Source of the DNA: Bacteroidota bacterium
Lineage (GTDB): Bacteria; Bacteroidota; Rhodothermia; Rhodothermales; UBA10348
Length of the DNA stretch: 64,000 nucleotides
NCBI GenBank assembly: GCA_022567305.1
Contig: JADFHF010000007.1
Location: forward strand, 1 to 64,000
Direction: 5' to 3'
A model generated the notes under the pieces. It ran no database searches and was not told where the DNA came from. It saw only the letters and a program-made list of their open reading frames with translations. Positions 7,396-15,902 of this stretch are shown here, in pieces; within the stretch, counting starts at the first letter, position 1, and each line of letters starts with the position of its first letter. The translations under genes were made by a program, and so were the position numbers.

Positions 7396-7602
7396 TCGCA
7401 AGTCGGCGCCTTCATAGATGACGCCCTCTTCCTAGTCGATGAAAATGCCCGTGGCACTGCCTTGTCGGCCATGAGCGTAGACACGGTGCCCCATCATCTT
7501 GTAGAGGCGACGTGTTTCGGGGGAGAATCCGAACGACTCCAACGGTGTGCGATCGGGCAACCACTGGAAGTGAATACTCGGCGCTTCAGCTTTGTCTGAC
7601 AT
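7396..7602 (-). pseudogene. C-terminal remnant of gamma-glutamyltransferase
   Basis: Reading the minus strand from 7602, the frame gives APSIHFQWLPDRTPLE, then FGFSPETRRLYKMMGHRV, RQGSATGIFID, a TAG (7434-7432), and in the same frame EEGVIYEGADLR. This order matches the C-terminal end of gamma-glutamyltranspeptidase small subunits (HHQWLPD, then LLEARGH, then GVIYGAADPR). Only about 70 residues are left, there is an in-frame stop, and the catalytic threonine region is absent, so it cannot work. It begins exactly where the tRNA-Leu 3' end stops. The identification rests on motif recall, not a database search. Confidence 0.6.
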
Positions 7603-7689
7603 GGTACCGAGGGCGGGACTCGAACCCGCACGGGCCGTTGGGCCCAACGGATTTTAAGTCCGTTGCGTCTACCATTCCGCCACCCCGGC
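7602..7689 (-). tRNA. tRNA-Leu (UAA)
   Basis: 88 bases including an encoded CCA (7604-7602 read on the minus strand). The acceptor stem pairs GCCGGGG with CCTCGGT. The D-arm holds GGCGGAATGGTAGACGC. The anticodon stem-loop is ACGGA-CTTAAAA-TCCGT with anticodon TAA at 7656-7654. A variable arm with stem (TTGGGCCCAACGGCCC region) marks a class II tRNA, and the T-arm is GCGGGTTCGAGTCCCGC. The G1-U72 wobble pair at the top of the acceptor is slightly unusual. Confidence 0.95.
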
Positions 7690-11991: not shown

Positions 11992-13236
11992 ATGACTGAG
12001 ACCCAGCAACTCATAGGATCTCCCTTGGATGAACTGAATCAGATGTCAGATTTTTCTGCCGTACCGCAGAGTCTGTCACCCCTTCTGACATCGATTCGCA
12101 GACATCTACACAAGAATCCCGAAATTGGCCTGGGAGAGTATGAGACGTCTCGCTTTATACGAGAAGTTCTAGAAATGCACGGTCTCGAAGTGCAAGGCCC
12201 GTTCGCCGAAACAGGGATTTGGGTGGACATCAAAGGTGAACATCCGGGTCCCATGATCGCTTTTCGAGCGGACATGGATGCGCTTCCGATTCAGGACACC
12301 AAGGATGTTCCACATGCCTCGGTCAACGACGGCCTGGCCCACCTGTGTGGCCACGACGTCCATACTTCATTTGCGATCGGGGTTGCGCTCATTCTATCGG
12401 GACTCCGCCACCTGATGCATGGATCAGTTCGCGTATTCTTTCAGCCCAATGAGGAAGGCATTCCGAGCGGAGCCCCTTTAATGATTGATGAAGGAGTTCT
12501 AGACGGTGTGGAGGCAGTATTTGCCTGTCACGTGGACCCAACCCTCCCCGTGGGTCAATATGGACTTACGCCCGGCCCGATCACCGCATCGGCAGATCGG
12601 TTTCGGATCAGAGTACTGGCGCCGACAACCGGTCATTCAGCCAGACCTCATCAGTCCGTGGACACTATTTGGATTGCAACGCAAATAATGTCGAACCTCT
12701 ACCAGCTGATCGGCAGAGTAACGGATTCGAGAAACAGTGCGATCCTCAGCATCTGCAGAATCCATGCGGGGGAGGCCTATAACGTACTTCCGGCCGTTAC
12801 TGAACTCGGAGGCACGTTTCGCTGTACGGAGCACGACGACCGCACTTTTATTCGCGAGCAGATCGTACGCACCGCTACCGAACTCGCGAAGATATACCAT
12901 GCCGAGATTCAGGTCGATTTTGACGACGGCGCCCCGCCAGTCGTCAATGACAAGAATTTCGTAAAGTTGGTTGAAGAGACCATCATTGAAACGCAGGGAC
13001 CCGAAGCCATTTTTGAAATTCCTCGCCCCAGCATGGGCGCTGAAGACTTCGCGTATTACTTGGCCCATGTGCCTGGAATGCTCTTGCGCGTAGGCACTTC
13101 TTCGGGCCCTGAAACTTCGCGCCCACTCCACGACTCCAATTTTGACGTGGACGAATCATCTCTTTCTCCGACGGCACAGTTAATGTCCCGGGTGCTGATC
13201 AAGGTGCTGCAGCGGCCTACAAACGGATCTGTCTGA
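11992..13236 (+). CDS. M20-family metal-dependent amidohydrolase
   Basis: 414 aa. Motifs of the IAA-amino-acid hydrolase/N-acyl-amino-acid amidohydrolase branch are intact: RRHLHKNPEIGLGEYET, RADMDALPIQD, CGHDVHTS (metal cysteine and histidines), QPNEEG (catalytic and metal glutamates), CHVDP and GAEDFAYY near the C-terminus. The dimerisation domain (about residues 185-300) holds TGHSARPH. It should hydrolyse N-acyl or amide-linked amino acids in the cytoplasm; no signal peptide is seen. The first ~25 residues (ETQQLIGSPLDELNQMSDF) are extra compared with the family core, so an alternative start at the internal ATG near residue 18 is possible. Confidence 0.9.
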   Translation: MTETQQLIGSPLDELNQMSDFSAVPQSLSPLLTSIRRHLHKNPEIGLGEYETSRFIREVLEMHGLEVQGPFAETGIWVDIKGEHPGPMIAFRADMDALPIQDTKDVPHASVNDGLAHLCGHDVHTSFAIGVALILSGLRHLMHGSVRVFFQPNEEGIPSGAPLMIDEGVLDGVEAVFACHVDPTLPVGQYGLTPGPITASADRFRIRVLAPTTGHSARPHQSVDTIWIATQIMSNLYQLIGRVTDSRNSAILSICRIHAGEAYNVLPAVTELGGTFRCTEHDDRTFIREQIVRTATELAKIYHAEIQVDFDDGAPPVVNDKNFVKLVEETIIETQGPEAIFEIPRPSMGAEDFAYYLAHVPGMLLRVGTSSGPETSRPLHDSNFDVDESSLSPTAQLMSRVLIKVLQRPTNGSV

Positions 13237-13280
13237 TACGGATTAATGAATCGTCCGTGCAGATCGTATGGAGTCCGTAT

Positions 13281-13425
13281 TAACTCGAGTAAATGGTGCG
13301 AGCCCATACTAACCCGGTTAAATGGTACGAGCCCATACTAACTCGGTTAAATGGTACGAGCCCATACTAACTCGAGTAAATGGTGCGAGCCCGTACTAAC
13401 TCGAGTAAATGGTGCGAGCCCGTTC
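13281..13425. repeat. Five tandem copies of a 29-bp unit
   Basis: Units at 13281-13309, 13310-13338, 13339-13367, 13368-13396 and 13397-13425. Each starts TAA-C-(T/C)-CG and ends GCGAGCCC or ACGAGCCC plus ATAC, GTAC or GTTC, with AAATGGT in the middle. There is no spacer, so it is not a CRISPR. Units 1, 4 and 5 carry ACTCGAGT and GTGCGAG. Units 2 and 3 carry CGGTT and GTACGAG instead. The palindromic character of the first half is kept in both forms (ACTCGAGT, AACCCGGTT, AACTCGGTT). The period of 29 is not a multiple of three and every unit contains stops, so it is not coding. It fills the gap between the amidohydrolase and lamin-tail genes (13237-13550). Confidence 0.95.
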
Positions 13426-13550
13426 CATTTCCCTCTGGCGCCTCTATTTCCAGCCGTTACGATATCACCGTTTGTGTCTCTAAGGATTGAACGGCTTCGA
13501 TAGTCCGGCTATTCAAGACGAACCCTCCGTGCGAATTCTGTCTTCTTTCG

Positions 13551-15902
13551 TTGACTCCATCTTCCGATCATTTTTGGCACCTTACACTCTGGTGCACCGC
13601 CTGCCTCTTAACTTTTCCGGTCATTTCTGGTTCAGATGCTCAGTCAGATGCTCAGGATTATGGCAACGCGATCAAAATTGTCATCAACGAGCTGTTCGTG
13701 GCTCCGAGGTCGGGGATTCCAGAATTCATAGAACTCCTCAACGTGGGTCCGAATACGGTCGACCTGGCAACGCTGTCGGTCGAAGATGCGAGGAGAGCTC
13801 CAGGCACCCTCACGTCGAGCACGGAAGCTTTGCTGAACCCGGGGGAGTTCGTCGTTCTGACGATTGACCTTCAAGCTCTTCGACAAGAGTTTGGCGCGTT
13901 CTCTGGCTGGGAGGTTCGACCCTGGCCGTCCTTGAACAACGCAGGCGACAACATCCTCATTTCGATCGACGGGATGGCGCAAGATTCTGTCTCGTATGAA
14001 TCATCCTGGATCGAGGCCGGCAAATCGATAGAGCGAATTAATCCGTCGGCTCCGGCTTCCTATTCTGGGAACTGGGCTATTTCCTCCTCGAATCTCGGGG
14101 CCACACCCGGGTTGCGAAACTCCCAATATGTCCCGGATACGATTCCTCCTCGTGTACTCAGCGCCGAGTACATCTCACCAACGACGATCGAGATCGCATT
14201 TTCAGAACCGATTTCCAGGGAGAGCATAGCCAGGAATCTGATTCTTTTAGACAATGTGGTGGTTACCGGAATGGACTTCCCGGCACCGTTCATCGATTTA
14301 CGAATTGTGGCTTTGACCCGTCACCGATATCTAACGGTCAGCGGCTTGGTTGATTTCTCCGGAAACGAGGCGCCAACGCAATCCTTAGAAATCGCCCAAC
14401 GCGCCGAACCACATGATCTAGTGATCACGGAAATCATGGCCAATCCTTCTGCTTCGGCAAGCGGTACAGACCTACCTGAATTTGTCGAAGTAAAAAACTG
14501 GGCGAATCACCCCGTTTCACTTACAGGCCTCAAACTCGCCATCGGCCCCGCTGCGGACCCTGATAAAGAGGTTTCGCTGAGAAAAAGAGGCGTGGTCCTC
14601 GGCGTCGGTGAACACGCAGTCGTCTACTCGGAACCGGTACAAGCGTGGATCTCGGATCCCGCAACGATGTCATCGCTAGCGCAATACGACCCTACAGCGT
14701 TCGGACAAAAGTCGTTCTTTAGAATCCCTGTTTCCGGAGGCTCTCTTGGGCTCAATAAGGGCTCGGATGCGCTGAGAATAGAAGATTCCCTCCTTGGAGT
14801 GATCGAAGAAATTGTTTACCTGGATGACTGGCACGACGATCGATTTCTGTCCACCAAGGGTCGTTCTTTGGAACGCATACGGGTTACGGAAAACGATCCC
14901 CTCCACCTTTCCTGGACAACGTCTGCTACCGATTCGGGCGTTTCTCTTGGTTATTCAAATGCGGCCTTGTCGTCTGAGAATGGATTGACAGGAATAGGCG
15001 GGGACCTTCGATTCAACGAAATCATGTACCAACCCGTCGCGAACGATTTCGATGGCAGACCCAATCAGCCCGAATACATTGAGTTCATCAACACCTCTGC
15101 ATCGGCGCTGGACCTGAACGGTCTTTATCTGATCAAAACACAGAACGAACGGATGTCGCAGGACTCACTCAGGCTTGCGTATCGAGAAACTCGCCTTGAG
15201 CCCGGTGGGCTTGTATTGGCCTTCACGGTTCCCCGCTACATCCCGGATGGGGACGAGTTTGCCCTCCAGTTCCTGTCCGATGCGTTTCCACAGATCGATA
15301 TCAGCGCTTCCACGATTCTATTACCCCTTCGCTCTTCCCTATCTCTTTCAAACGCGGGCGCCAGTTTGACTCTGTTCTCGGCCGGAAACGTGCAGCTCGA
15401 TGCCGTAACCTATTCGCCGGAATGGCATCACTTCCTCGTAGCGGATGGGGCTGGTTTATCTTTGGAGCGAGTAGATCCCGATGGCCCTTCGAATTCAGAA
15501 AGCAACTGGTCCACGAGTGTCCGCGCATCCGGGGGCTCGCCGGGAAGTCAGAATTCGGTCACCATCTCAAGATCACTATCCGCCAACACGACACCGGTAT
15601 CTATTGAGCCGAAGACGTTTTCGCCCAACTCGGACGGAGTGCATGACTTGACTCGCATTTCGATTCAGGTCGAACACAGACTGGGAGCTGTTCGGGTACG
15701 CATTTTCGATCTGGACGGTCGAGAAGTCCGACGTCTGATCGACACCGAGTTGTTTGTCGGCGAGGGTCAGTACTATTGGGACGGTAGCAGCGACGATGGA
15801 TTACCCCTCGCGTCGGGAATCTATATTGTCCTCGTAGAAATCGCCGATGCGATGTCTCGGAAGACCAAGTCTTACAAGGCTCCGGTAGCAATTCTTCATT
15901 AG
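13551..15902 (+). CDS. Secreted protein with three lamin-tail domains and FlgD-like C-terminus
   Basis: 783 aa from a TTG; no strong ribosome site, so the start is uncertain. A signal peptide follows (LTLWCTACLLTFPVISGSDAQ). Three LTD modules begin near residues 43 (VINELFVAP...EFIELLNVG), 288 (VITEIMANP...EFVEVKNWA) and 485 (RFNEIMYQP...EYIEFINTS). Between the first two is an SbsA/Big_5-like Ig domain (IPPRVLSAEYISPTTIEIAFSEP). The last ~90 residues (FSPNSDGVHDLTRISIQV...VRIFDLDGREVRRL...YYWDGSSDDG) are a FlgD/gliding-associated Ig-like domain, often a surface sorting or anchoring end in Bacteroidota. It is probably cell-surface or released; its substrate is unknown. The 29-bp repeat array lies just upstream. 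Confidence 0.85.
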   Translation: MTPSSDHFWHLTLWCTACLLTFPVISGSDAQSDAQDYGNAIKIVINELFVAPRSGIPEFIELLNVGPNTVDLATLSVEDARRAPGTLTSSTEALLNPGEFVVLTIDLQALRQEFGAFSGWEVRPWPSLNNAGDNILISIDGMAQDSVSYESSWIEAGKSIERINPSAPASYSGNWAISSSNLGATPGLRNSQYVPDTIPPRVLSAEYISPTTIEIAFSEPISRESIARNLILLDNVVVTGMDFPAPFIDLRIVALTRHRYLTVSGLVDFSGNEAPTQSLEIAQRAEPHDLVITEIMANPSASASGTDLPEFVEVKNWANHPVSLTGLKLAIGPAADPDKEVSLRKRGVVLGVGEHAVVYSEPVQAWISDPATMSSLAQYDPTAFGQKSFFRIPVSGGSLGLNKGSDALRIEDSLLGVIEEIVYLDDWHDDRFLSTKGRSLERIRVTENDPLHLSWTTSATDSGVSLGYSNAALSSENGLTGIGGDLRFNEIMYQPVANDFDGRPNQPEYIEFINTSASALDLNGLYLIKTQNERMSQDSLRLAYRETRLEPGGLVLAFTVPRYIPDGDEFALQFLSDAFPQIDISASTILLPLRSSLSLSNAGASLTLFSAGNVQLDAVTYSPEWHHFLVADGAGLSLERVDPDGPSNSESNWSTSVRASGGSPGSQNSVTISRSLSANTTPVSIEPKTFSPNSDGVHDLTRISIQVEHRLGAVRVRIFDLDGREVRRLIDTELFVGEGQYYWDGSSDDGLPLASGIYIVLVEIADAMSRKTKSYKAPVAILH

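Follow-up and report, generated by a model that had tools for sequence, protein, structure and literature searches.

A tandem array of degenerate palindromes before a surface-protein gene as candidate multiplied operators of a MarR-family regulator

A non-coding array of 29-bp units in the window (the whole stretch of DNA that was analysed, 64 kb in length) probably represents doublet operators of a MarR-family regulator encoded on contig 93 of the same genome, which would have been locally multiplied before a surface-protein gene. Judging from comparisons of sequence, we give this reading a probability of about 68%. The array belongs to a genome-wide family of palindromes that stand in pairs at a fixed spacing and that constrain coding DNA at several loci, and the MarR gene co-occurs with, and is linked to, these palindromes in two genera.

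The array and its neighbours

TRF detected a single array in the window, located at 13281-13421 with a period of 29, 4.9 copies and 91% matches. The five exact-length, non-coding 29-bp units without spacers described by the sequence-only reading are real according to TRF, to the list of open reading frames (ORFs) and to a 25-base unit pattern that, allowing up to 3 mismatches, gave 4 matches in the window and 0 in 100 shuffles. Among the listed ORFs of at least 80 aa between 8000 and 22000, only one, of 83 aa on the minus strand and running over the upstream M20 gene, extends into the array, by 27 bp at its tip. Near-identical units in tandem are a feature that the array shares with minisatellites (VNTR). 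A CRISPR would combine repeats with unique spacers, while here each unit follows directly on the one before and the array's linkers are almost the same.

The units follow the order A, B′, B, A′, A′, where A carries GAGT...TGCG, B carries GGTT...TACG and B′ is B with one extra change (T>C). Thus, two unit types with linked differences do exist, but the covariation read into them does not hold: the differences are three positions common to two adjacent units, the linkage is explained by duplication of adjacent units, and five units provide no evidence of covariation. The dyad that had been taken as the selected element is in fact linker. The first 11-bp linker (13283-13293, ACTCGAGTAAA) contains this dyad, ACTCGAGT; linker sequence varies by locus without within-row symmetry beyond chance, and 299 of 5000 column-permuted unit sets showed a dyad at least as good in every unit. 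The conserved element is instead the palindrome TAGTACG-N4/5-CGTACTA, of 18-19 bp with 7-bp arms, which spans the boundary between the units as they had been drawn.

In the register of this palindrome the array, to which no strand is assigned, extends over 13264-13427, so that the extent first given to it was too short, and it comprises TAGTACG-N4/5-CGTACTA six times in degenerate form, with 11 bp of linker between neighbours and with the TRF core inside. Palindrome 1 (13264-13282), which begins outside the units first described, has a centre of 5 and 3 mismatches out of 14. The remaining palindromes have a centre of 4: palindrome 2 (13294-13311) with 3 mismatches, palindrome 3 (13323-13340) with 2 and a B-type arm, TGGTACG, that is closer to the family consensus, palindrome 4 (13352-13369) with 2 and again a B-type arm, palindrome 5 (13381-13398) with 2 and the A-type arm TGGTGCG, and palindrome 6 (13410-13427) with 4. 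Carrying 2-4 mismatches each, the window palindromes rank among the weaker copies of the family, and on this ground the array may be decaying.

Upstream of the array lies a plus-strand gene for an M20 peptidase/amidohydrolase (11992-13236), whose stop is 45 bp before position 13281. Downstream, about 125 bp separate the array end from the TTG start of a plus-strand gene (13551-15902, 783 aa) that encodes a lamin-tail-domain surface protein with FlgD_ig and a CHU_C C-terminus. This gene is a possible regulated target of the array which, as had been proposed, is itself a possible variable-copy promoter element. A T9SS-type domain suggests that the DNA comes from Bacteroidota or a closely related phylum. 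Promoter and terminator prediction returned one minus-strand promoter-like match, a chance-level result, and no terminator. The sole RNA gene found in the window was a tRNA-Leu (anticodon TAA) at 7602-7689 on the minus strand.

A genome-wide family of paired palindromes

Neither BLAST nor patterns with up to 3 mismatches located the unit elsewhere in this genome. BLAST of the array region matched 1 of 60 genomes and the unit pattern 1 of 114 genomes of the order, in both cases this genome, in a set with a single genome for each species and with this genome as the sole member of its genus; unit and doublet patterns had no match in GTDB or IMG/VR contigs, from which records of the same or a very near genome were possibly excluded. 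The sequence-only reading had held that a lack of other copies in the genome would speak against it. By BLAST and unit patterns this lack seemed real, yet divergent copies are plentiful. A TRF scan for other arrays, on a genome sample of 932 kb and later of 1.30 Mb, gave further non-coding arrays, among them six units of 30 bp on contig 74 (L101:15426-15609) that align with the window array (0 of 1000 permuted controls scored as high), and permissive BLAST then raised the number of loci to three with L080 on contig 34. The letters common to the three loci are those of the palindrome TAGTACG-N4-CGTACTA. The contig 74 array is located upstream of an XRE-family gene; all of its units retain the right arm CGTACTA, whereas the left arms are degenerate.

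Two other non-coding arrays were noted. L058:13404-13599 (contig 32, about 77.4 kb) consists of about 24 short units, CCCAGACA/CCTAGACA, unrelated in sequence to the palindrome family and flanked by a glycosyltransferase-like gene and the minus-strand gene that comes next; L043:5346-5472 (contig 2) is an intergenic 23-bp array, CACCTGCCCGGGTACCGTTTGTT, of about 5.6 copies between two convergent genes.

The whole genome contains 5 exact palindromes, compared with about 0.014 expected by our own arithmetic, and 8 with one mismatch, many of them 29 bp apart; further loci, in which the centre has 5 bases and the period is 30 bp, came from a profile search. An earlier profile made from mixed units, poorly aligned and unable to recover the window array, was set aside. 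In an open doublet scan of about 1.4 Mb of the genome, where centres of 3-6 and linkers of 8-14 were allowed, doublets with at most 4 of 28 mismatches numbered 19 against 0 in the reversed control, with a linker of 11 in 19 of 19 pairs, and those with at most 6 mismatches numbered 31 against 1, counts that describe the family rather than an unbiased rate because the sample consisted partly of stretches fetched for known palindromes or pairs. Spacing played no part in the choice of the loci found by single-palindrome search. Altogether, about 18 loci carry at least two palindromes, 17 of these 18 with an 11-bp linker, which makes their period 29 or 30; the sole exception, on contig 7, has a linker of 12. 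The 18 loci are distributed over 17 contigs (7, 8, 19, 21, 31, 32, which is that of the window, 34, 55, 74, 76 with two loci, 93, 94, 96, 102, 106, 107 and 111). This genome-wide family with its fixed spacing supports the suggestion that the array may have been selected as a binding site.

For palindromes with 3 mismatches the reversed control (170) exceeded the real count (82), and hence only low-mismatch matches and paired matches carry weight. With at most 1 mismatch, the count across the family was 18 against 7 in the control for this genome (G000), and in the other 26 genomes it stayed below the control except in four (G007, 8 against 6; G002, 3 against 2; G022, 9 against 8; G004, 8 against 7) and in G024, where both were equal. 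One lone palindrome with 2 mismatches, inside a xanthine dehydrogenase-like gene (L066:8902-8919; contig 8, about 108.9 kb), is possibly due to chance.

The linkers are unlike from locus to locus, which indicates that the doublets were not copied as blocks. Their column consensus looks symmetric (ATTG-NNN-CAAT), but in 17 of the 18 linkers, with the 12-base linker of contig 7 left out, symmetry within rows fell short of that in shuffles (23 of 85 cells, where the shuffles averaged 33.3), and a second hairpin in the linkers was discarded for this reason. On contig 31 (L231:5127-5232), three of four palindromes are identical and so are the two linkers between those three, making this a second recently duplicated array; it is flanked by a sodium/glutamate symporter-like gene and a 2Fe-2S oxidoreductase subunit gene (types judged from sequence), which are transcribed apart. 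The genes near the 18 loci have no common theme, and the sites on contigs 34, 21 and 111 are placed downstream of genes or between gene ends, not upstream.

Several sites are found inside genes. Doublets lie within those for kynureninase (contig 107), DnaX (contig 106), a sortilin/BNR protein (contig 19), a Ser/Thr kinase (contig 96) and a D-Ala-D-Ala carboxypeptidase (contig 76, L244), and another one overlaps the end of a PIN-domain gene (contig 94). All have a centre of 5 and a period of 30, and the five intragenic doublets use the reading frame that avoids stops. Across the residues encoded by the kynureninase doublet, the alignment to two PDB entries that we take to be human kynureninase (7s3v and 3e9k) is gapless, meaning that the site was written over native sequence without insertion. 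When 940 mechanically picked ORFs, one of which runs over the MarR gene start, were compared with 30 synonymous-codon shuffles, coding doublets with at most 5 mismatches numbered 8 in the real ORFs and 0 in the shuffles. Combined with the differing linkers, this result is an argument that a DNA-level site arose repeatedly and independently. Overall, the intragenic doublets and the differing linkers point to convergent selection for a putative DNA-binding site and away from a mobile repeat or an RNA structure.

A MarR-family gene with palindromes at its start

The candidate binder is encoded by a MarR-family gene at 51.9-52.5 kb of contig 93 (L235). The start of this gene, likely the TTG just after the last palindrome, is overlapped or immediately preceded by three palindromes. 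The protein has a MarR winged-helix domain (PF01047, 32.2 bits; PF12802, 33.1 bits; both above the cut-off), and its PDB relatives are transcriptional regulators, many of them named MarR (best E 5e-6). At 18-19 bp, the palindromic site has the length of a MarR operator, about 16-20 bp. Downstream on the same strand (L235:2787-4654) are a LytS-type histidine kinase gene and a LytTR-type response regulator gene, types again judged from sequence. Relatives of the MarR protein on plasmids are distant (91 records, all below 60% identity), as is the single record in phages, and none was found in viral contigs.

Doublet patterns N4 and N5 with up to 3 mismatches matched 6 + 6 times in this genome and not once in the 243 (N4) and 237 (N5) other genomes of the class. 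We also searched with a profile built from 16 doublets of G000, without G005, a genome of another genus of the same family. In G005 the profile matched 35 times when E values up to 10 were accepted, with 4.4e-7 as the best value. These matches are spread over at least 11 contigs, and several follow each other at a distance of two periods, about 57-60 bp. The strong scores in G000 (best E 1.3e-12) are due to construction since the profile was built from this genome. In the remaining 25 family genomes the best E was 0.11, with weak matches in five, and therefore strong site matches occur only in G000 and G005 among the 27 genomes. A homologue of the MarR protein is likewise present in 2 of 27, again G000 and G005 (54% identity). 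The chance of hitting that pair is 1 in 351, a figure that applies to the one candidate tested, which was chosen because a site cluster overlaps its start; any other DNA-binding gene restricted to G000 and G005 would give equal co-occurrence, and the XRE-family gene beside the contig 74 array is a second candidate binder.

Linkage was also seen in G005, where the MarR match is at C167:3803-4213 and the third-best site at C167:3600-3653, about 150 bp upstream of the match. The open frame there has only 172 aa, which places the site upstream of the gene. By our own arithmetic, a distance of 250 bp or less for any of the roughly seven good site places in G005 has a probability of about 0.1%. G012, from the genus of G005 and 74% complete, had neither the sites nor the MarR regulator, and the 8 kb examined on contig 38 of G005, which holds the best relative of the surface-protein gene, contained no doublet.

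Under the proposed mechanism, a MarR dimer would sit on each palindrome, and a doublet would accommodate two dimers side by side with their centres 29-30 bp apart. The three sites at the start of the regulator's own gene would mediate autoregulation. In the window, a doublet would have grown by tandem duplication into six weaker sites, the nearest of which ends about 124 bp before the start of the surface-protein gene. Several regulator dimers would occupy these sites, about 120-290 bp upstream, and change transcription of the gene. As the number of units would set avidity, the array probably tunes the surface-protein gene or the free level of the regulator.

Alternative readings and implications

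The palindromes could be operators of some other DNA-binding protein, or chromosome-organising sites like those of SlmA, Noc or MatP. Their spread over 17 contigs, the lack of a shared gene theme and the intragenic position of some sites would fit this, and yet in both genera a MarR gene has a site cluster at its start and matches the distribution of the sites in 2 of 27 genomes, so that we regard this alternative as unlikely. Rather less credit still can be given to a dispersed mobile palindromic repeat which, once inserted, would multiply in tandem. REP/BIME and Rickettsia palindromic elements are palindromic and dispersed, sometimes in tandem and sometimes within coding sequence, and our sites, which are palindromic, mostly intergenic, in tandem and confined to two genera, look similar. 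They differ in that the linkers are unrelated between loci, the coding doublets occupy native codons, and the kynureninase doublet, the one coding site tested in this way, brings no change of length relative to the human enzyme. A mobile repeat is already disfavoured on these grounds.

A functionless minisatellite produced by replication slippage is equally improbable. Unit duplication is clear in the array (types A, A′ and B, B′) and unrelated non-coding arrays exist in the genome at L058 and L043, but most other members of the genome-wide family to which the units belong did not arise by slippage; slippage may explain the number of copies in the array. We find it hard to credit at all that the array acts as RNA hairpins in a transcript, the other reading offered from the sequence alone. 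Its predicted fold exceeds those of dinucleotide shuffles in stability (z -3.9 and -4.4), but 10-12% of 2000 column-permuted arrays fold as stably, Rfam gave no match at E up to 1 over 13000-13800, and the palindromes also lie inside coding sequence. Moreover, the arms do not covary: only 1 pair had changed on both sides and 369 of 500 shuffles reached the observed value, in a test of limited power as its rows were picked by consensus similarity. Absence of arm covariation is what a DNA site predicts and an RNA stem does not.

The reading as MarR operators has parallels in known systems. The available parts of two reports describe MalR of Corynebacterium glutamicum, a MarR-family protein with 66 peaks (PMC6536590), and PA3458 of Pseudomonas aeruginosa, another one with more than 300 sites (PMC8070244). 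As in the candidate system, these dimeric winged-helix proteins have many sites, palindromic or nearly so, some of them intragenic (PMC6536590, PMC8070244). In contrast to what those parts report, the predicted sites here stand for the most part in doublets with a fixed linker of 11 bp, at some loci multiplied into minisatellites, and TAGTACG-N4/5-CGTACTA differs from the AT-rich motifs given there (PMC6536590, PMC8070244). Titles and abstract openings returned by a literature search held no description of the palindromic site.

The consensus of NrdR boxes is different from TAGTACG-N4/5-CGTACTA. Their arrangement is similar, with two boxes at a nearly fixed spacing serving one repressor; the accessible portion of the source places the boxes upstream of ribonucleotide reductase operons with 15-16 bp between them, or 25-26 bp in Streptococcus pneumoniae, whereas the linker here is 11 bp and the nearby genes are unrelated (PMC12051234). 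In fly regulatory modules, neighbouring binding sites have arisen as duplicates, like those of the window array and of the arrays on contigs 31 and 74; the accessible part of that work sets unicellular organisms apart, and the present array would be a bacterial case (PMC3188502).

We also put forward, tentatively and as possible rather than probable, a broader proposal drawn from these predicted sites: a lineage-restricted MarR regulator with rigid doublet operators, some embedded in codon choice, which would expand into copy-number-variable, dose-setting or titrating minisatellites. Through this analysis, what looked like an isolated repeat becomes a candidate regulator-operator system open to testing, with a named candidate protein, about 18 predicted loci, sites in conserved genes and a site grammar of palindrome, centre of 4 or 5 and linker of 11. 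If true, a bacterial minisatellite would have arisen by multiplication of an operator, a DNA site would be maintained within enzyme-coding sequence such as that of kynureninase, and the minisatellite would be a regulator-titrating or dose-setting element and not junk.
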